Source: a virus
Virus record (IMG/VR): IMGVR_UViG_3300032116_001206
Span: 1-25,360 of that record
DNA: 25,360 nt
Direction: 5' to 3' (one strand)
Both the position numbers and the translations under genes were made by a program. Positions 4,380 through 23,032 of this stretch are shown one piece after another (positions within the stretch are counted from its first letter, which is position 1; each line of letters begins with the position of its first letter). Below the pieces are notes generated by a model, which had not been told where the DNA came from, made no database searches, and was given only the letters and a program-made list of their open reading frames with translations.

Positions 4380-6249
4380 AAAAGATATATCATATTTAGG
4401 TAGAGACTTTGGACAATTTAGAAAAAATCTAATTGACTTTACCAAACAGTATTTTCCACAAACATACACTGATTTTAATGAATCATCTCCAGGTATGGTA
4501 TTCATTGAAATGGCAGCGTATGTTGGGGATGTATTATCATATTATGTTGATAATAATTTGCGAGAATCTTTTTTAGAACAAGCATCTGAACCTTCTAATG
4601 TATATGATATTGCAAAATCATTGGGTTATACTCCTAATAACGTTGTACCAGCTTATGTAACATTAGATATTTTTCAATTGGTACCTTCTACCGGCACTGG
4701 GACTAATGTAAAACCAGATTATGATTATGCATTATCAGTTAAACCTGGTATGCGTATAAAACAATCAAATGGTTCAGCAATTTTCAGAACTTTAGACAGT
4801 GTAAATTTTAATTTTTCATCATCAGTAGATCCTACCGAAGTTACTATATATGAAAGTGATGACACTACTAAATTGCCTACATATTACTTACTAAAAAAAC
4901 AAGTACGTGCAGTATCTGGTGATGTTCGTGTTGGATCTTATACATTTGCTGATCCAGTTGCATACGATAAAATTGTGTTGCCGGAAACAAATATTATAGA
5001 AATTTTATCTATTACTGAATCAGATGGAGATAATTGGTATCAAGTTCCATATTTAGCACAGGATACTATTTTCGAATCAGTTCCAAATTTAGCAGAAAAT
5101 GATCCAGATTTATCACAATATCGGTCATCGTCCCCTAGTTTATTGAAATTAAGAAAAACTGCTAAACGTTATATTACTAGATTACGCAGTGATAGTAAAT
5201 TAGAAATTCAGTTCGGATCTGGAGTATCTGATAATAACGATGAAGAAATTATTCCTAACCCAGATAACGTTGGTAATGGTTTAGCAGGATTTCGTAGAGA
5301 AGTAGATATCGATATCGATCCATCTAACTTTTTATATACAAGAACATATGGTCAATCACCGTCGAATACTACATTAACAGTTACGTATACTGTAGGAAAT
5401 GGTATATCTGACAATGTTCCAGCAAATACATTGACTGAAATTAATTTTATTGAATATAGTGATGATGTTAACGCAACTACCAATACCGGTTTAGTTAATT
5501 TTGTAAAAACTACAGTAGCTGTTAATAATCCAAATCCAGCAGCTGGAGCTAAAACAGCAGATACACTGCAAGATATAAAAAATAATGCATTAGCAAATTT
5601 TGCTACACAGAATCGATTGGTTACGCGCGAAGATTACATAATACGAGCATATTCTATGCCAGCTAAATACGGCAGTGTATCAAAAGCGTATATAGTACCG
5701 GATGATCAGTTATCTCAGCAAGACTATGAACAAACTAGAATTCCTAATCCATTGGCAATGAACATGTATGTTTTAGGTTTCAATGAATCTAAACAGCTAG
5801 TAGAATTAAATCAGGCAATTAAAGAAAATTTAAAAACATATCTAAACTATTACAGAATATTAACTGATGCAATAAATATTAAAGATGCATTTATTATTAA
5901 TATTGGTATAGATTTTGAAATTTCAATTCTGCCAAATTATAATAGCAATGAAGTATTACTTCTTTGTGTCAATGCATTAAAATCATTATTTGATGTTGAT
6001 AAATGGCAAATTAATCAGCCTATAATAAAATCGGATATAACAACTACATTAGCTAATACGCGAGGTGTACAATCTGTAGTTGGTGTTGGATTTAAAAATC
6101 TATATGATTCTAACTTTGGTTATTCAGGCAATGTTTACGACCTATCAACTGCTACGAAAAATGGAGTTATATATCCATCATTAGATCCTAGTATTTTTGA
6201 AATTAAATTTCCAAATCGCGATATTAGAGGGCGTGTAGTAAATTATTAA
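4369..6249 (+). CDS. gp6: Baseplate wedge protein gp6 (baseplate J-like)
   Basis: At 626 residues it is close to T4 gp6 (660). The N-terminus (about 8-75) carries the gp6/J-like start, YLGRDFGQFRKNLIDFTKQY, followed by SSPGMVFIEMAAYVGDVLSY and FLEQASEPSNVYDIAKSLGY. The middle holds long beta-rich stretches. The C-terminal half carries the J-like feature of an RLVTREDYIIRAYSMPAKYG segment (about 418-440) followed by alternating helices and strands. gp6 dimers form the ring that joins baseplate wedges and drives the change that starts sheath contraction. The start overlaps gp25 by 11 bases. The next gene begins 9 bases after the stop, with AAAGG as a ribosome-binding site. Confidence 0.9.
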   Translation: METKKDISYLGRDFGQFRKNLIDFTKQYFPQTYTDFNESSPGMVFIEMAAYVGDVLSYYVDNNLRESFLEQASEPSNVYDIAKSLGYTPNNVVPAYVTLDIFQLVPSTGTGTNVKPDYDYALSVKPGMRIKQSNGSAIFRTLDSVNFNFSSSVDPTEVTIYESDDTTKLPTYYLLKKQVRAVSGDVRVGSYTFADPVAYDKIVLPETNIIEILSITESDGDNWYQVPYLAQDTIFESVPNLAENDPDLSQYRSSSPSLLKLRKTAKRYITRLRSDSKLEIQFGSGVSDNNDEEIIPNPDNVGNGLAGFRREVDIDIDPSNFLYTRTYGQSPSNTTLTVTYTVGNGISDNVPANTLTEINFIEYSDDVNATTNTGLVNFVKTTVAVNNPNPAAGAKTADTLQDIKNNALANFATQNRLVTREDYIIRAYSMPAKYGSVSKAYIVPDDQLSQQDYEQTRIPNPLAMNMYVLGFNESKQLVELNQAIKENLKTYLNYYRILTDAINIKDAFIINIGIDFEISILPNYNSNEVLLLCVNALKSLFDVDKWQINQPIIKSDITTTLANTRGVQSVVGVGFKNLYDSNFGYSGNVYDLSTATKNGVIYPSLDPSIFEIKFPNRDIRGRVVNY

Positions 6250-6258
6250 AGGTAATTC

Positions 6259-7377
6259 ATGTTTAGAATATTTTATGCAGAAAAAGATGCTACTTTATAT
6301 GAAGCATATCCAGATTATAATACCGGACTAGATGAGGTATTAGAAATTGGAAAACGTTTAAATAATGAAGGAGACACTTTACTTAAGTCTCGTGCATTAC
6401 TTAAATTTGATATGTCAGAAATTTCTGCATCACTATCTAAGTACAGTAAAACAGTTAATGATTGTAAATTCGTATTGCAAGTATATACATCTCATGCAAA
6501 AAATTTACCATCTGAGTATTCAATATATGCAAAACTCGTTGGAGAAAATTGGGTAAATGGTACTGGATATTTGTCTAGTTTAACAACAGATGGTGCAACA
6601 TGGAGCGGGTCACAATCCGGATCTGCTTGGATATCATCGAGTCAACAAGTACAAGTTGGATCGAGCACATTGTATATATCCGGATCTGGTGCTGGCGGTT
6701 CATGGATGTATCAATCAGCATCGGGTGGTAGTACTGCTGGACTTATTTCATCTGAATCATTTTCATATCGAGTAACTGATATTAATATGAATGTTACAGA
6801 TGCCGTAAAAGTTTGGTTAAGTGGTAGTGGTGGTGCTACAATTCCTAATTATGGTTTTCTGTTACAATTTGCTGATAGTGATGAATCAGATACGGCAAAG
6901 GCCGGATATATTAGATATTTTAGTAGAGATACTCATACTATATATGTGCCTAAAATACTAATGTATTGGGATAACAGCACATTTACAACAGGATCGTTAA
7001 CTGCTGCTAATCTAGAGTCATACACAATATACACCCAAATAAAACCAGAATATAAAGATACTGAGATTGCGAAGATTAGAATCTATGCACGGGATAAGTA
7101 TCCCAGAAAATCTCCTACTAATTTATTTCCAATAGAAACAGTAAAATATCTACCTACTACTACATATTATGCAGTTTTCGATGCACAGACAGACGAAGCC
7201 ATAATTCCATATGATGATATTTATAATAAAGTTAGTTGTGATAGTACTAGCAATTTTATCTACATTGATATGAATAGTTTTATGCCAGAACGATACTATC
7301 GTTTAGAGTTTAAAATTGTAGATGGAATTACTGAACAGTACAGTGACAACAAAATTTATTTTAAAGTAGTTAGATAA
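6259..7377 (+). CDS. DNRLRE-domain virion protein between gp6 and gp7-like genes
   Basis: This is a 372-residue protein. Residues about 1-240 fit the DNRLRE-type beta-sandwich found in secreted or surface carbohydrate-associated proteins: EKDATLYEAYPDYNTGLDEV, then SRALLKFDMSEIS, then a central strand region, then VTDAVKVWLSGSG and NYGFLLQFADSDE, closing with RYFSRDTHTIYVPKILMYW. An S/G-rich insertion (about 105-165, including GSGAGGS) interrupts the domain. The last 125 residues form a second beta-rich domain. Its place inside the baseplate operon (9 bases after gp6, stop overlapping the next start as TAATG) suggests an exposed adhesin-like decoration of the wedge. That would be an uncommon use of this domain. 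The domain call is by pattern only, and the function is inferred. Confidence 0.72.
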   Translation: MFRIFYAEKDATLYEAYPDYNTGLDEVLEIGKRLNNEGDTLLKSRALLKFDMSEISASLSKYSKTVNDCKFVLQVYTSHAKNLPSEYSIYAKLVGENWVNGTGYLSSLTTDGATWSGSQSGSAWISSSQQVQVGSSTLYISGSGAGGSWMYQSASGGSTAGLISSESFSYRVTDINMNVTDAVKVWLSGSGGATIPNYGFLLQFADSDESDTAKAGYIRYFSRDTHTIYVPKILMYWDNSTFTTGSLTAANLESYTIYTQIKPEYKDTEIAKIRIYARDKYPRKSPTNLFPIETVKYLPTTTYYAVFDAQTDEAIIPYDDIYNKVSCDSTSNFIYIDMNSFMPERYYRLEFKIVDGITEQYSDNKIYFKVVR

Positions 7378-13933: not shown

Positions 13934-15508
13934 ATGGCAGAATCTAGAATAACATCCGAACAAGATACATATCAAGGCATATATCCATCAGTTTTTAAAA
14001 AAATTGATGCTGCTGATGTTATGGTTAATTCATTTCCTGCTTATAAATCATGGACATTTACTTCCGGGAGTGCTACTTCAAGTTGTTTACCATTAATTGG
14101 AATATATACAGACACTACTACTTTGCCAGCAATTGGATCTGAATTAACATTTAATGATGTAAAAAACATTGATGAAAGTTTGCAATCAGTAACATATTTT
14201 TCGATTAACCATTTGTTTTATAAATGGAAATCCCAACCATTAAATACATTTGGTCCAACTGATTTGAATCGAACAAAAAAAACATTATATCAATCGGCGT
14301 CTATTTTTTCAATACCACAAGTAAAAATAGGCGAATCTATAAAACCAGCATCATTTACATATACTGGATCTGTAAATTTAGCATCGGACCGATATGGCAA
14401 TTTATATGACACTGCATTTAATACATCATCGATTATTTCTGACATTAAATGGTATGACGGATTTAATGAATATTTTGATACATCTAGATTAACATATGAA
14501 AATCAAAATATAGAATTCATACCCGGCGTACCTACTACCAATGGATCACAGTTATCAATTGGATATGCAGCAAAGTTTAATGGTAACGGATATATGTCAT
14601 CTAATATTACTGGAAATTATGACAGAGATCATGATTATTCCATATCATTTTTTATTTCAGCATCAAATACTGGGACTAGCAACCAATTAATTTTAGCAAA
14701 AGCATCTAGTAGTTTAACTCCAACATATCCTTTTAAAATTGAATTAAGTGGTAGTAAACAAATAATTTTTACAGTAGGTGGTAGTACACAATTTTCTACT
14801 AGTATAACATCATCGATAATTGTTACCGGTTCGTGGAGACATGTTGTATGTCAAAAATCTGGTAGTAATATTCAAATGTATATAAATAATAATCTACATG
14901 CATCTGCATCAAGTGTGTTATTAGAAAATACATTATCACCATTTACTGCATCTGCTAGAATTAATAACACAGATCCATTATATATAGGTGGTTTTAATAC
15001 CCAAAGTTCTAATCTCTACGGCGTTCTAGATGAATTAAGGATTTTTAATAAGTCACTTACAACTAGCAATATAAGTGCGTTATCGGATCGTACGGAAGGA
15101 GGAACATTTTTACAAACTGCTAATGTAGGTAATGTTTTTAGTAAACAAGGTTTAGTTGTAGTATCATCTCCAGATTATCGGTATCATTCAGTATTAAACA
15201 CTGCATATACTGCTAGTTATAAAAGCACTGTTACTATACATGAATTTAGTACAATAGCAAAATTAGATTCTGGTGATTTTAATATGTCAACAAATTTAAC
15301 ATTAACAAAGGATGATGACACTACATATCATAGTTTTGTTAGTGGTAGTGATTTTGCTCCATATATAACAACTATTGGTTTGTATAATGATTCAGGAGAG
15401 TTATTAGCAATTGGAAAATTAGCACAACCTATTCGAAAAAGAAATGATGTTGATATGAATTTTCTAATACGTATAGATTTAGATAAAAATATTTCGTTTA
15501 AAGGTTAA
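13934..15508 (+). CDS. LamG-domain virion protein (probable receptor-binding/adhesin component)
   Basis: This is a 524-residue protein. Residues about 205-385 form a recognisable LamG/concanavalin-like domain: YAAKFNGNGYMSSNITGNYD, DYSISFFIS, then GSWRHVVCQKSGSNIQMYIN, then PLYIGGF and VLDELRIFNKSL. Such sandwiches commonly bind glycans or proteins. The N-terminal 200 residues are beta-rich, with SYQSAS-like polar stretches. The C-terminus (from about 476, PYITTIGLYNDSGELLAIGK) matches the end of the protein encoded at 12604. The gene lies immediately downstream of a strong terminator with only 7 bases between the T-tract and ATG and no clear ribosome-binding site, so its expression is probably through read-through or an overlapping promoter. 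The kinase-like gene follows after 2 bases. Confidence 0.78.
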   Translation: MAESRITSEQDTYQGIYPSVFKKIDAADVMVNSFPAYKSWTFTSGSATSSCLPLIGIYTDTTTLPAIGSELTFNDVKNIDESLQSVTYFSINHLFYKWKSQPLNTFGPTDLNRTKKTLYQSASIFSIPQVKIGESIKPASFTYTGSVNLASDRYGNLYDTAFNTSSIISDIKWYDGFNEYFDTSRLTYENQNIEFIPGVPTTNGSQLSIGYAAKFNGNGYMSSNITGNYDRDHDYSISFFISASNTGTSNQLILAKASSSLTPTYPFKIELSGSKQIIFTVGGSTQFSTSITSSIIVTGSWRHVVCQKSGSNIQMYINNNLHASASSVLLENTLSPFTASARINNTDPLYIGGFNTQSSNLYGVLDELRIFNKSLTTSNISALSDRTEGGTFLQTANVGNVFSKQGLVVVSSPDYRYHSVLNTAYTASYKSTVTIHEFSTIAKLDSGDFNMSTNLTLTKDDDTTYHSFVSGSDFAPYITTIGLYNDSGELLAIGKLAQPIRKRNDVDMNFLIRIDLDKNISFKG

Positions 15509-17503: not shown

Positions 17504-18289
17504 ATGAAAATAATACAAGAACAGGGACAGGAAATCGATTTTGATGCTATCGAACAAGATATAAGGTCATCTACACCTACAACAACCAAAAAGCCGGTAA
17601 ATACTAATGTTAACAAAGGTGGCGGAACTGGCAGTAATAAAGGTGATACTAACACAACAGACAATACTGATACAAAAAAAGATAGTAAAATAGATGCAAC
17701 GGAAGAGGAACGTAAAATAGCTGGGCGGTCGGAATATATAGGCGAATATATATTAAATGCAATTTCATTTTTCGAAAATATTGGTCCATTAACTGTTTTA
17801 TATGATATACCGGAAGATCGTGTTGCTAAAATAATTTCAAGACGTTTAGCTGGTAGTCGGTCTCAATGTACATGGGCAGATTGGATAATACGTTTAGCTA
17901 ACTCAAATTCTCCTACTAGTAACTCAGCACGAAAGTATCCGAAACAATATGGATATGTACTAACACAGAATGGTAAAACTAGTGCTACATTGGATTATTT
18001 ACGAAATATTCCAAAACATCCATCTTTAATAACATTAAATGATTTAGTTAATCCAGCTAAGGATTTAGGTGATTATCTAGGAGTTGATGACGTATCTGAT
18101 ACATATGGAAAAACAATTCGAAACAGTTTACGTCTAGATGGAAAATTTACATTTAAAACTGAAGATAACACTGTTATTAGTTCTAAGTTTAACTATCCAG
18201 CCTGGCCACCAACAATGGAAAAAATTGTATTAGCATTATATACAACTAGTGCATATGGTTCACCTAAGAAACAATATAAAATATACTAA
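17504..18289 (+). CDS. Unknown protein with N-terminal low-complexity linker
   Basis: This is a 261-residue protein. A short helical start (MKIIQEQGQEIDFDAIEQDI) leads into a T/N/G/D/K-rich linker (about 24-68, with VNKGGGTGSNKGD), then a folded helical region from about residue 70 (YIGEYILNAISFFENIGPL, RVAKIISRRLAGSRSQCTW). The C-terminus is basic/aromatic (KKQYKIY). The linker suggests two parts held flexibly. The ATG directly follows ATATTTATA at 17495-17503. If that box were a promoter, its transcripts would miss or barely include the start codon, so expression probably comes from 16081. The stop shares a base with the endonuclease start (TAATG). No family is recognised. Confidence 0.72.
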   Translation: MKIIQEQGQEIDFDAIEQDIRSSTPTTTKKPVNTNVNKGGGTGSNKGDTNTTDNTDTKKDSKIDATEEERKIAGRSEYIGEYILNAISFFENIGPLTVLYDIPEDRVAKIISRRLAGSRSQCTWADWIIRLANSNSPTSNSARKYPKQYGYVLTQNGKTSATLDYLRNIPKHPSLITLNDLVNPAKDLGDYLGVDDVSDTYGKTIRNSLRLDGKFTFKTEDNTVISSKFNYPAWPPTMEKIVLALYTTSAYGSPKKQYKIY

Positions 18290-18771
18290 TGGCAAAAAAT
18301 CATTGGCATGGAGCTGCGAATAGTAAACGAGCAGCTGCATATAAATACGGTTATAAATCAGGATTAGAACATACAGTTGCTGATCAGATTAAATCTGCAG
18401 AATATCCTTTGAATTATGAAACAGAAACATTAAATTATATAGTACCAGAACGTAAAGCAAAATATACTCCAGATTTTGTTTTTGTTAAGAAAAATGGTGA
18501 TTTAATGTTTATAGAAACAAAAGGACGATGGACTAGTGCGGACCGTTTAAAAATGAAACATGTATTGGCATCAAATCCTGGAATTGATATACGTATGGTA
18601 TTTCAAGCTCCTGCTCAAAAAATTTCAAAAAACAGTAAAACAACTTATGAATCTTATGCAAATAAATTAGGTATTAATTATGTTGCAAAGAAACAAATTC
18701 CAGAAGAATGGTTATCGGAATGTTTGCGCACCGGTGAAGAAGTTGTTAATGTTAAAAAGTTTTTTACGTAA
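18289..18771 (+). CDS. T7-type endonuclease I (Holliday-junction resolvase)
   Basis: This 160-residue protein aligns by eye along its length with T7 gp3 (149 residues). Landmarks are KSGLEHTVADQI (E27 equals the T7 catalytic E20), KYTPDFVFVKKNGDLMFIET followed by KGRW (D62, E76, K78: the PD-D/ExK site), then DIRMVFQAPAQKISKNSKTT and YESYANKLGINYVAKKQIPE with EW. The enzyme cuts four-way and branched DNA as a domain-swapped dimer. It resolves recombination intermediates before packaging and, in T7, helps break down host DNA. T4 itself uses an unrelated endonuclease VII (gp49), so this phage has the T7-style solution beside T4-style structural genes. All four catalytic residues are present. It lies in the group that leads into primase and the nuclease/ATPase fusion. 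Confidence 0.95.
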   Translation: MAKNHWHGAANSKRAAAYKYGYKSGLEHTVADQIKSAEYPLNYETETLNYIVPERKAKYTPDFVFVKKNGDLMFIETKGRWTSADRLKMKHVLASNPGIDIRMVFQAPAQKISKNSKTTYESYANKLGINYVAKKQIPEEWLSECLRTGEEVVNVKKFFT

Positions 18772-18956: not shown

Positions 18957-19901
18957 ATGAAAAATCTAAAGTTATTGCAATTATTAGAATCGGTTTTAGG
19001 TAAAGGTAAACCTACATCCGGCGATAACATAGCATTTTTTTCTCCGTTTATTTCACACTATAAACCAAAGCTTGAAATAAATATTCAAACAAATCATGCT
19101 GGTGAAAACGTTTGGCATTGTTGGATATCAGATAAAAAAGGTCGTTCGATTACATCTTTGTTTAAGCAATTAAATTTAGGCAAAGAAAAGTTTGAACAAC
19201 TTAACCGTATCATAGAAAATACTAAGTATCGACAATATACACAAGTAAAACAAGAAACACCAACAATTCAATTGCCAGATGATTATCGGCCTCTGTGGAT
19301 AAAAAAGAATACTCCTGATTACAGAAACGCAATACATTATTTAACTAATCGTGGTATTACGATATTTGATATTATTAAATACCGAATTGGATATTGCGAG
19401 TCCGGTGAGTATTCTGGTAAAATTGTGATTCCTAGTTACGATGCTAACGGTCAATTGAATTATTTTGTAAGTCGAGCATTTTATAAATCAGACACTCAAA
19501 AACATAAGAATCCAAAGATATCCAAAGACATTATTGGTTTTGAAATGTTTATTAATTGGGCAGAACCAATTATACTATGCGAAGGAGCTTTCGATGCAAT
19601 TGCAATTAAACGCAATGCAATTCCGTTATTTGGTAAAATAATTCAGCCAGCACTTCAACGAAGAATTGTAGAAGAACGAGTTAAAAATGTATACATTTGT
19701 CTAGACCCGGATGCTTTAAAAAAAGCAGTGCAAATTGCAGAAAGATTCATGGCAGAAGGGTTAAATGTTTACTTCATAGAATTAAAAGATTCTGACGCGT
19801 CAGAATTAGGATTCCAAGAAATTACAAAAATAATCGCAGATACTGATGTGTTAACATTTGAACGGTTAATGCAATTAAAAATGGATATGATATGGATATA
19901 A
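18957..19901 (+). CDS. gp61: DNA primase, TOPRIM type (gp61-like), with degraded zinc ribbon
   Basis: This 314-residue protein is close in size to T4 gp61 (342). The N-terminal part (about 25-70: FFSPFISHYKPKLEINI, then VWHCWISDKKGRSITSLF) matches the zinc-ribbon region of phage primases, in which CxxC...CxxC would fall at 29/32 and 55/58. Here these are S29, I32, C55 and S58, so only one ligand remains. The TOPRIM core follows: IILCEGAFDAIAIKRNAIPL (about residue 203, with the catalytic glutamate) and NVYICLDPDALKKAV (the D-x-D motif). The enzyme would make RNA primers for the lagging strand with a gp41-type helicase. It overlaps the next gene by 10 bases, so the two are translationally coupled. 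The start follows a 185-base non-coding region. Confidence 0.82.
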   Translation: MKNLKLLQLLESVLGKGKPTSGDNIAFFSPFISHYKPKLEINIQTNHAGENVWHCWISDKKGRSITSLFKQLNLGKEKFEQLNRIIENTKYRQYTQVKQETPTIQLPDDYRPLWIKKNTPDYRNAIHYLTNRGITIFDIIKYRIGYCESGEYSGKIVIPSYDANGQLNYFVSRAFYKSDTQKHKNPKISKDIIGFEMFINWAEPIILCEGAFDAIAIKRNAIPLFGKIIQPALQRRIVEERVKNVYICLDPDALKKAVQIAERFMAEGLNVYFIELKDSDASELGFQEITKIIADTDVLTFERLMQLKMDMIWI

Positions 19902-22900
19902 AACATATTGATACAGGTTTGGAATGGATAGATAAAATTTATCATATTTCTGATGTGCACATTCGTACATTGAAACGGCATCGTGAATACCGAGAAGTGT
20001 TTCGCAATTTATTCGATCATATTGCATTTGACTGTACTGGTAATAGCATAGCAGTTGTTACTGGAGATATCGTGCATAGCAAACTAGATATGTCACCGGA
20101 ATTAATTGATATATTAGTAGAATTTTTTGATGGGTTCATGATTCCTACCGTTGTTATTTTAGGCAACCACGACATGAATCTGAACAACATGCATCGCACA
20201 GATGCAATTAGTCCAATTATCAATGTTATTAAGAATCCTAACATTATTTTTATTCGCGATAATGGATTATTTGAAATAGGCAATGTGGTATTCAATCATA
20301 TGGCAGTTGATACTCCACCTTCTGAATATATACGAGCCGACCAATTCACTGCTGCATACAAAATAGCGTTGCATCATGGAGCTGTTAACACTGCAAAAAC
20401 TGATATCGGATATCAAATATCAAATGAACATGTAGGTGTTGAATTGTTTGACGGGCATGACATCACGTTGTTAGGAGATATACATAAACCAGCTCAATTC
20501 TTAAATGATGCTAAGACTGTTGCATATCCTGGTTCACTGATTCAACAAAATCATGGAGAAGCATTAGACCATGGAATTTTAGTATGGGACTTGCCTTGTC
20601 GTGAAGCTAAATTTGTGCAAATACATAATGATTATGGATATGTAACTTTAGAATGCGAAGGCACTAAAATTATTAATGCTCCGCACCGAATTCCAAATAA
20701 ACCTAGGATCCGTATTAAATTTAATAATACCGATGCTGCGGATATGAAAAAGCTAATTGCTACGATTCGTAAAAAATATGATGTGCAAGACATCACAATT
20801 CAACGAAACACAAATTCAGCATCTACATCGGCAACTTCATCGTTTACAATTGGCAATGTACGTGATGTTGAATATCAGAATACATTGATTACAGATTTTA
20901 TCGCAGTTAATTTTCCACAAGCAACACCAGAAGAAACAGATGCAATACGTCACATCAATCGCACAGTTAATTCTAAACTACCTGCAGTAGAATCAGTACG
21001 GCATATGACTTGGCATCCTATTCAATTTGAATTTGATAACATGTTTTCATACGGAGAAGGTAACATCATTAACTTCGAAAATATGCAGGATGTGCATGGC
21101 TTATTTGCTGCAAACACATCAGGTAAATCTTCATTATTAGATGCAATAACATATACTATTTTTGATAAATGTAGCAAAACTGGTAAAGCTCATGAAGTAT
21201 TAAACAACAAAAAAGCATCATTCAGAGGTAAATTTGTGTTTGAAATGAATGGTGTTATATACACTATTGAACGAACTGGCATCAAACAAAAAAATGGTCA
21301 TGTTAAAGTTTTAGTAGATTTTTACACTGAAACGGAAAACTTGAATGGAGAAGAACGAAGTGATACAAATAAATCAATTCGTAGATATTTAGGAACATAT
21401 GATGATTTTATTTTAACGGCATTTTCTTTGCAAGCCGATAACAATAATTTTATTGAAAAGTCACAACGAGAACGTAAAGATCTTCTTTCACAGTTTTTAG
21501 ATATTACGGTGTTTGAACAGCTATATCAATTAGCATCTGATGAAATTAAAGAAACGGCTGGTAAATTAAAAGAATACAAAAAAACAGATTTTGCAGAAAT
21601 AATTGTTAGTGCGGATAATATTATAACAACAAATCAACAAACTATATTTGATTTAGAACAGCAAGAAAATAATTGTCAAGAATCTAGAAATCAGTTGCAA
21701 GAACAAATAGTATCATTAATTGAAACAAAATTACCAACTACATATAACGGACCGGATATTACAAAATTACAAAAACAAGAAACCAATTTAACTGAAAAAA
21801 TTAACGAATTACAATTTGATATCGATCAATCGGAGCAAACTCTTGAAGAATTAAAAACAGATCGAGACACGATAAAAAATGACATTCGTAATTATGATGA
21901 ACCTGAATTATTAGAACAATTAGACCAATTAAAAATTTTCAACAACAATCTCATTCGAATTGAAAATGACATTGACAAACAACAAGGAGTTGTAAATGCT
22001 AAACAAGAAAAAATTGAGCATCTTGCCGAACATGAATATGATCCGCAATGTGAATACTGTGCATCTAACGTTTTCGTACAAAATGCAATCGAAGCGCAAA
22101 ATACAATTGATCAAGACAGAAACATATTAAACGAGTTGCAACGGGTTAAACAGGATATTGTAGCAGAAATTTCTTTATTACAACAATATGAACAACGATA
22201 TTCTGAATTAGTTTCATTAAAAACGGATCTACAAAACAAACAAAGTTCAATTGAAAAATTAGAATTGCAACTTCAAATTGCAGAAAATGAACTGCAGACA
22301 AAGGAATCTGAACTAGAAACATGTTTAGAGCGGCAAGAATCATTTCGTGGAAATGCGACAGCAATAATTCATAATCAAAGTGTAGATTTAAAAATTGCAA
22401 CTTGTAAACAAAGTATCGAATCTTGTTCGGCAGAAATAAAATCTACACAGGACACAATTAAATCTTTGTTTGGAGCAATTGAGGTTGCTAAAACTACGAA
22501 ATCAAATGCAATTACTCAGTTAGATGCATATAAAAAATTAGAAACAGAATACAAAGCATATGAATATTATTTGCAAACTGTTAAGCGTGATGGCATACCG
22601 TATGAGCTAATTGCCAAGGCAATGCCAAAGATTGAAACTGAAATAAACAATGTGCTTAATCAGGTTGTTGATTTTAATATGGTGCTTCAGAGTGATGGTA
22701 AAAACATTAATGGATATATCATATACAATGAAGATAATTTTTGGCCATTAGAATTAACAAGCGGGATGGAACGTTTTATTTCATCGTTAGCAATACGTAT
22801 TGCACTTATCAATGTGTCTGCATTGCCTCGTCCTAATTTTATTGCAATCGATGAAGGCTGGGGTTCATTGGATGCTGAACATATTTCTGCTGTAGTTAAT

Positions 22901-23032
22901 TTATTTGATTATTTACGAACTAAATTCGATTTTTCAATCATCGTATCTCATGTTGATTCTATGCGAGATATGGTTGATAATTTAATTGAAGTGAATAAAA
23001 TTGACGGATTTAGTGAGATCTGTCATACCTGA
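19892..23032 (+). CDS. gp47-gp46: Fused Mre11/SbcD (gp47) nuclease - Rad50/SbcC (gp46) ATPase
   Basis: This is one frame of 1046 residues. Residues about 15-275 are a calcineurin-type phosphoesterase: SDVH (D21, H23), GD at 58-59, GNHD at 91-94, an ALHHG motif and GDIHKPA. A capping region (about 255-310) and helices (326-371) lead into the Rad50-like part from 372: FEFDNMFSYGEGNIINF, Walker A AANTSGKSS (K412), long coiled coils, zinc hook CEYC (C720, C723), second coil, signature LTSGMERFISSLAIR, Walker B/D-loop FIAIDEGWGSLD and H-loop IIVSH. In T4 these are separate genes 47 and 46, which together resect DNA ends for recombination-dependent replication. Here the interacting pair is covalently joined. 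Walker A has Ala instead of its first Gly, and the signature has Met for the second Gly. It overlaps primase by 10 bases. Confidence 0.93.
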   Translation: MDIKHIDTGLEWIDKIYHISDVHIRTLKRHREYREVFRNLFDHIAFDCTGNSIAVVTGDIVHSKLDMSPELIDILVEFFDGFMIPTVVILGNHDMNLNNMHRTDAISPIINVIKNPNIIFIRDNGLFEIGNVVFNHMAVDTPPSEYIRADQFTAAYKIALHHGAVNTAKTDIGYQISNEHVGVELFDGHDITLLGDIHKPAQFLNDAKTVAYPGSLIQQNHGEALDHGILVWDLPCREAKFVQIHNDYGYVTLECEGTKIINAPHRIPNKPRIRIKFNNTDAADMKKLIATIRKKYDVQDITIQRNTNSASTSATSSFTIGNVRDVEYQNTLITDFIAVNFPQATPEETDAIRHINRTVNSKLPAVESVRHMTWHPIQFEFDNMFSYGEGNIINFENMQDVHGLFAANTSGKSSLLDAITYTIFDKCSKTGKAHEVLNNKKASFRGKFVFEMNGVIYTIERTGIKQKNGHVKVLVDFYTETENLNGEERSDTNKSIRRYLGTYDDFILTAFSLQADNNNFIEKSQRERKDLLSQFLDITVFEQLYQLASDEIKETAGKLKEYKKTDFAEIIVSADNIITTNQQTIFDLEQQENNCQESRNQLQEQIVSLIETKLPTTYNGPDITKLQKQETNLTEKINELQFDIDQSEQTLEELKTDRDTIKNDIRNYDEPELLEQLDQLKIFNNNLIRIENDIDKQQGVVNAKQEKIEHLAEHEYDPQCEYCASNVFVQNAIEAQNTIDQDRNILNELQRVKQDIVAEISLLQQYEQRYSELVSLKTDLQNKQSSIEKLELQLQIAENELQTKESELETCLERQESFRGNATAIIHNQSVDLKIATCKQSIESCSAEIKSTQDTIKSLFGAIEVAKTTKSNAITQLDAYKKLETEYKAYEYYLQTVKRDGIPYELIAKAMPKIETEINNVLNQVVDFNMVLQSDGKNINGYIIYNEDNFWPLELTSGMERFISSLAIRIALINVSALPRPNFIAIDEGWGSLDAEHISAVVNLFDYLRTKFDFSIIVSHVDSMRDMVDNLIEVNKIDGFSEICHT

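Follow-up and report, generated by a model that had tools for sequence, protein, structure and literature searches.

A single-chain Mre11-Rad50 (SbcD-SbcC) protein, very probably of the Mimivirus R555 kind, in a tailed-phage genome fragment

A stretch of viral DNA of 25,360 nucleotides (positions 1 to 25,360 of the IMG/VR record IMGVR_UViG_3300032116_001206; hereafter, the window) contains one uninterrupted frame of 1046 residues in which an SbcD/Mre11-type nuclease is followed by a capping domain, a helix-loop-helix (HLH), and a zinc-hook Rad50/SbcC ATPase (Table 1). The two partners of this DNA-break-processing machinery are usually separate proteins. We conclude that a tailed phage very probably encodes here a natural Mre11-Rad50 (SbcD-SbcC) in a single chain, of the same kind as R555 of Mimivirus. 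Two Pfam matches are above the cut-off, Metallophos at residues 15-200 and AAA_23 at residues 382-610, while SMC_N at residues 781-1036 is below it. In the PHROG scan, the match to an SbcC-like family starts at residue 286, and a phmmer comparison with solved structures retrieved Rad50 and SbcC. Hence, an SbcD-like Metallophos domain and a Rad50/SbcC ATPase are present in one polypeptide with the nuclease at the N-terminus, as the initial annotation had proposed from an uninterrupted frame carrying a phosphoesterase motif set and then a complete SMC-like ATPase; all motifs listed there were found.

A protein search of viral contigs identified 191 relatives, and the 80 best ones were retained. 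Further loci were collected with Mel-JY01, a phage of Microcystis, as the query (20 loci), with a 735-kb phage as the query (10 loci), and in contigs of cellular genomes (4 loci), to a total of 114. All 80 loci of the close search cross the Mre11/Rad50 junction within one open reading frame (ORF), and the junction is likewise intact in the 34 more distant loci, the whole set being about 22-97% identical. The same domain order, which the initial annotation had suggested seeking among phage and metagenome proteins, thus occurs at 114 loci as well as in cultured phages, and none of these loci is split at the junction, an arrangement that would have spoken against a true fusion. Breaks are seen only outside the junction: one locus (L107) is interrupted within the nuclease near residue 215, and LR756508 has an insert there. 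In two loci from cellular genomes (L122 and L123), the match is confined to the nuclease half. The median ratio of non-synonymous to synonymous substitution rates (dN/dS) is 0.13 for the Mre11 half, 0.10 for residues 321-373, and 0.23 for the Rad50 half (1308 pairs; dS is near saturation and the values are rough). By these estimates, both halves and the joint between them are under purifying selection.

An assembly or sequencing artefact, i.e., a missed stop or a frameshift that fuses two adjacent genes, is a vanishingly improbable explanation. Such artefacts do occur: in Listeria phage LMTA-57 (KJ591605.1, 61005-61904), one fused gene is annotated against about 50 near-identical relatives in which the genes are split, the match is one base shorter, and the fusion is probably false, arising from a sequencing error. 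However, in the family studied here the junction is read through by 114 loci and by a cultured phage with a complete genome, dN/dS is about 0.1 across the joint, and the length of the joint is constant. A missed stop, a frameshift, or chance is excluded by the relatives that carry the junction in one ORF, and the single-chain nature of the protein claimed at the outset is borne out.

Another possibility is that two products are made, the full-length fusion and a separate Rad50 translated from an internal start near codon 372. In the window this codon is an ATG, exactly where a free Rad50 would start. Nonetheless, among 68 aligned members, only 33 have Met at position 372 and 28 have Thr there, and the window has no Shine-Dalgarno-like sequence ahead of the codon. 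We therefore reject an internal start at codon 372 as a conserved feature and regard the two-product hypothesis as very improbable.

An AlphaFold2 model of the fusion (43 sequences in the input) has a mean predicted local distance difference test score (pLDDT) of 83.7 and a predicted template modeling score (pTM) of 0.45. Residues 12-305 of the model were superimposed by VIA-align on Staphylococcus aureus SbcD (7dog) with Z 24.6 and a root-mean-square deviation (rmsd) of 3.2 over 270 aligned residues. The ATPase part matches E. coli SbcC (7yzo; Z 30.3, rmsd 3.5, 345 aligned) from residue 374 and Rad50 (3av0; Z 29.9, rmsd 4.8, 355 aligned) from residue 372. Since these two residues align with residue 1 of the SbcC and Rad50 chains, the second half starts where a free Rad50 would, the SbcD match having ended at residue 305.

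Between these boundaries, the Rad50-binding HLH of Mre11 is apparently retained just N-terminal to the ATPase, and it would dock on the coil base of the same chain. The initial annotation had considered the region 326-371 to be contact helices turned into a linker. Two helices do precede the ATPase, but the HLH persists as such, and a separate non-helical joint follows it. The joint shows no length variation in 67 members and is 90% conserved, in contrast to the linker ahead of the HLH (only 66%); the majority fraction over the HLH segment is 0.86 across aligned members. In the Thermotoga maritima complex, the distance between the Mre11 C-terminus and the Rad50 N-terminus was computed to be approximately 28 Å, corresponding to 9-12 residues (PMC3175470), and the 12-residue joint fits this expectation. 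The capping domain and the HLH are thus both kept and are followed by a joint of the length expected for a protein of the R555 kind.

In the nuclease half, the motifs D21-x-H23, G58-D59, G91-N-H-D94, H162, and G195-D-I-H198 were found, and the metal-ligand positions and the catalytic His of Mre11/SbcD are all filled by His, Asp, or Asn (D21, H23, D59, N92, H93, H162, D196, and H198). The sites given in the initial annotation are right, except that its fourth motif (GDIH, window positions 20474-20485) departs from the usual GH-x-H, having Asp in place of a metal-binding His. This position is occupied by His in all six split comparators (T4, SPO1, A511, phiM12, a Moorella phage, and E. coli) and by Asp in none of them, whereas 22 of the 24 fused phage proteins sampled, which belong to two clades, have Asp here; the sample is small and consists of related proteins. 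The association may reflect shared descent or a tie to the fusion, and we treat it as a lead only. D196 and H62 are present in all 68 aligned family members.

These substitutions raise the question of whether the nuclease half has degenerated into a structural module, with the protein acting mainly as an ATPase or a DNA-end tether. The loss of the metal-ligand His of GHxH to Asp is compatible with this, as is His62, which sits where E. coli and T4 have Asp. On the other hand, nearly all members retain the catalytic His93 and all the remaining ligand residues, and Asp at this place recurs in the fused proteins of two separate clades and also in R555 (PMC3175470). Because of this recurrence, D196 is probably a working metal ligand, and we find a degenerate nuclease quite unlikely.

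The active-site codons are interrupted in one relative. In LR756508.1, the genome of a 484-kb phage, the orthologous fusion is broken just 3' of GDIH by approximately 1 kb (around 5600-6670). The insert holds a 305-aa ORF in another frame with a match to a TnsA-like endonuclease, and it resembles a mobile intron that encodes a homing endonuclease; an Rfam search of the insert retrieved no family and no intron match.

The ATPase half has the complete set of Rad50/SbcC features, namely, Walker A, a CxxC hook, the signature, Walker B (IAIDE, ending at E988), the H-loop (H1020), and a bipartite head with coils. In all of the window clade, and in the relatives nearest to it, the signature is a variant, TSGME instead of LSGGQ/E.

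We propose the following scheme for the protein. The SbcD-type nuclease would retain its capping domain and Rad50-binding HLH, and as the conserved 12-residue segment ties the HLH to the first strand of the ATPase, each nuclease would remain permanently attached to its own ATPase. Dimerization of two chains through the nuclease, the ATP-engaged heads, and the zinc hook would yield, as a homodimer, the M2R2 machine of two nucleases and two Rad50 subunits. ATP-driven closure of the heads could then control whether DNA ends or hairpins reach the nuclease. The initial annotation suggested a pre-assembled 1:1 complex; the stoichiometry is indeed 1:1 per chain, but an M2R2 assembly requires a pair of Rad50 heads and a pair of nucleases, so that the active form is most likely a homodimer of the fusion. 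It is likely to resect ends or cleave hairpins during recombination-dependent replication. The phage would use the protein as T4 uses gp46/gp47, resecting ends for strand invasion of the RecA/UvsX type, and might further use it in the processing of host or damaged DNA. The presence of a RecA-family recombinase in six of seven long related records fits such replication.

Several observations weigh against this interpretation of the window protein as a natural single-chain complex of the R555 kind. The window record is a 25-kb fragment. Both Asp196 in place of the metal-binding His and the TSGME signature could mean that activity or its control differs. The HLH assignment is based on position and on predicted helices rather than on sequence, and when the HLH segment alone served as a sequence query, no solved relative was retrieved. 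The pTM of the model is low, as expected from the long coils, and we found no biochemistry on the window clade in the literature. A rather doubtful variant of the proposal is that the complex is permanently docked and differently regulated: the joint would lock the HLH to the head, the Asp ligand and TSGME would alter ATP gating, and fusion and active-site change would have co-evolved, possibly repeatedly. We retain the proposal of an R555-like single-chain complex. With its short, fixed joint and its length of approximately 1050 residues, such a single chain would be handy for structural work on the gating of Mre11 by Rad50, because its stoichiometry is fixed.

The fusion is not a new kind of protein. 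Mre11/Rad50 fusions were described by Yoshida, Claverie, and Ogata (2011; PMC3175470) for Mimivirus R555 and 12 others, including one of Bacillus phage 0305phi8-36; the same HLH-linker geometry was already proposed there, and R555-like genes were noted on aquatic scaffolds together with phage primases and T7-type endonucleases, an association that the window, from an aquatic phage, shares. The mechanistic idea thus dates from 2011, and fusions are common in large phages and giant viruses; the remark in the initial annotation that no well-studied phage example was known to it is superseded by that report and by cultured phages. In the open-licence literature, we found no paper on Mel-JY01 and no later paper centered on phage Mre11/Rad50 fusions.

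The likeness to R555 extends to the active site. In R555, Asp replaces His206 of Pfu and His replaces the third Asp of DXH..GDXXD (PMC3175470), and both nuclease substitutions are common to the window family (D196 and H62). The domain order is the same as in R555 and other giant-virus fusions, with the capping domain and the HLH segment kept and a short joint. The window protein differs in being approximately 300 residues shorter (R555 has 1351 aa) and in being encoded by a tailed-phage genome, hence in a prokaryotic host. In BFVD, the model is best matched by long proteins of giant viruses (Tupanvirus, Harvfovirus, Catovirus, and Terrestrivirus; approximately 19-24% identity) annotated as DNA repair exonucleases or hydrolases. 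As to shared ancestry with R555, giant-virus proteins are thus the top predicted-structure matches, and the tree described below was built without the R555 sequence.

At least two phage clades have the fusion as their standing form, and the kind is commoner in phages than the one phage example given in 2011. Cultured phages with the fusion include Microcystis phage Mel-JY01, Cobetia phage Carin-5, Rhizobium phage RHph_TM2_3B, Vibrio phage 1.031.O, Thermus phage phiLo, and Acinetobacter phage Ab1-TPeters; both halves are also found in single annotated proteins of three more cultured phages, Sphingomonas phage PAU, Tenacibaculum phage PTm1, and Chryseobacterium phage MA9V-1. The Mel-JY01 fusion (WWT39521.1, "AAA domain containing protein") is 41% identical to the window fusion over the full length. 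Both phages have a primase and an endonuclease upstream, although in Mel-JY01 a GIY-YIG endonuclease is annotated instead of endonuclease I. The fusions of the other five phages of the first list form a separate clade, with a canonical LSGGQ signature and, in four of the five, a pre-ATPase segment about half as long. In contrast, T4 gp47/gp46, SPO1 gp21.3/gp21.9, and E. coli SbcD/SbcC have the same nuclease and ATPase domains encoded by two genes, and a canonical H-x-H motif.

In the tree of sampled phage proteins, there are two fused clades and the best tree implies two state changes, while a single fused clade is not rejected (approximately unbiased test, p-AU 0.247). The PHROG models phrog_77 and phrog_100 have 967 and 989 positions, respectively, and the split SPO1 subunits match only the later or the earlier part, so that both families seem to have included fused members already. 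Annotation as "SbcC-like," "SbcD-like," "endonuclease subunit," or "metallo-phosphoesterase" usually conceals the fusion.

Table 1. Features of the fusion gene and its upstream neighbors in the window.
Feature	Position	Strand	Basis or remark
Single-chain Mre11/SbcD-Rad50/SbcC fusion, 1046 aa	19892..23032	+	Open frame; Pfam and PHROG matches; 114 loci with intact junction
Calcineurin-like nuclease domain, residues 13-245	19928..20626	+	Pfam, model, motif alignment, match to 7dog
Capping domain, residues 248-306	20633..20809	+	Predicted strands and one helix; within the 7dog match (SbcD nuclease and capping domain)
Flexible linker between capping domain and HLH, residues 307-325	20810..20866	+	Lowest pLDDT of the model at 307-318; majority fraction 0.66
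HLH, presumed Rad50-binding element of Mre11, residues 326-360	20867..20971	+	Predicted helices 326-340 and 346-360
Fusion joint, constant length, non-helical, residues 361-372	20972..21007	+	Majority fraction 0.905
Rad50 ATPase N-lobe, residues 373-540	21008..21511	+	Pfam, motifs; solved SbcC/Rad50 chains begin at 372-374
Walker A AANTSGKS, residues 406-413	21107-21130	+	Motif alignment
Coiled coils, residues 541-719 and 725-897	21512..22582	+	Predicted long helices
Zinc hook C720-E-Y-C723	22049-22060	+	Hook conserved among relatives
Rad50 ATPase C-lobe: signature, Walker B, D-loop, H1020	22583..23029	+	phmmer, motifs, structure match
ABC signature TSGME, residues 956-960	22757-22771	+	Motif alignment
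DNA primase, DnaG-like, phrog_47, directly upstream of the fusion	18957..19901	+	10-base overlap of primase stop with fusion start
T7-type endonuclease I, PF05367, phrog_945	18289..18771	+	Pfam and PHROG

The gene neighborhood is conserved. The primase is directly upstream of the fusion in all 77 loci with enough flanking sequence, with an overlap of a few bases in 75. Of the 63 loci in which the flank is long enough, 62 have a T7-type endonuclease I. In 11 long related records (the only complete one known being the 190-kb Mel-JY01), there is one AAA_23 match per record, which is always the fusion, and no second Rad50 match was found; two of seven records have extra Metallophos matches, which lie in frames of 185-247 aa. 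Elsewhere in the window, there are baseplate wedge and other structural genes, and therefore the phage is probably contractile-tailed. Amid the structural genes, a 524-aa ORF (13934-15508) has a concanavalin-like Laminin_G_3 domain, and its product is possibly a host-adhesion protein.

Two further relatives deserve mention. In contig CALBOT010000005.1 of a Nitrosopelagicus archaeal metagenome-assembled genome, the fusion is 46% identical; this is probably a mis-binned phage contig, or else a hint of an archaeal host. In Yersinia phage YerA41 (1405-4442), the fusion is split within Rad50: the first gene, of 827 aa, contains the nuclease, the N-lobe, and the coils, and the next, of 185 aa, contains the C-lobe, with a 4-base overlap between them.

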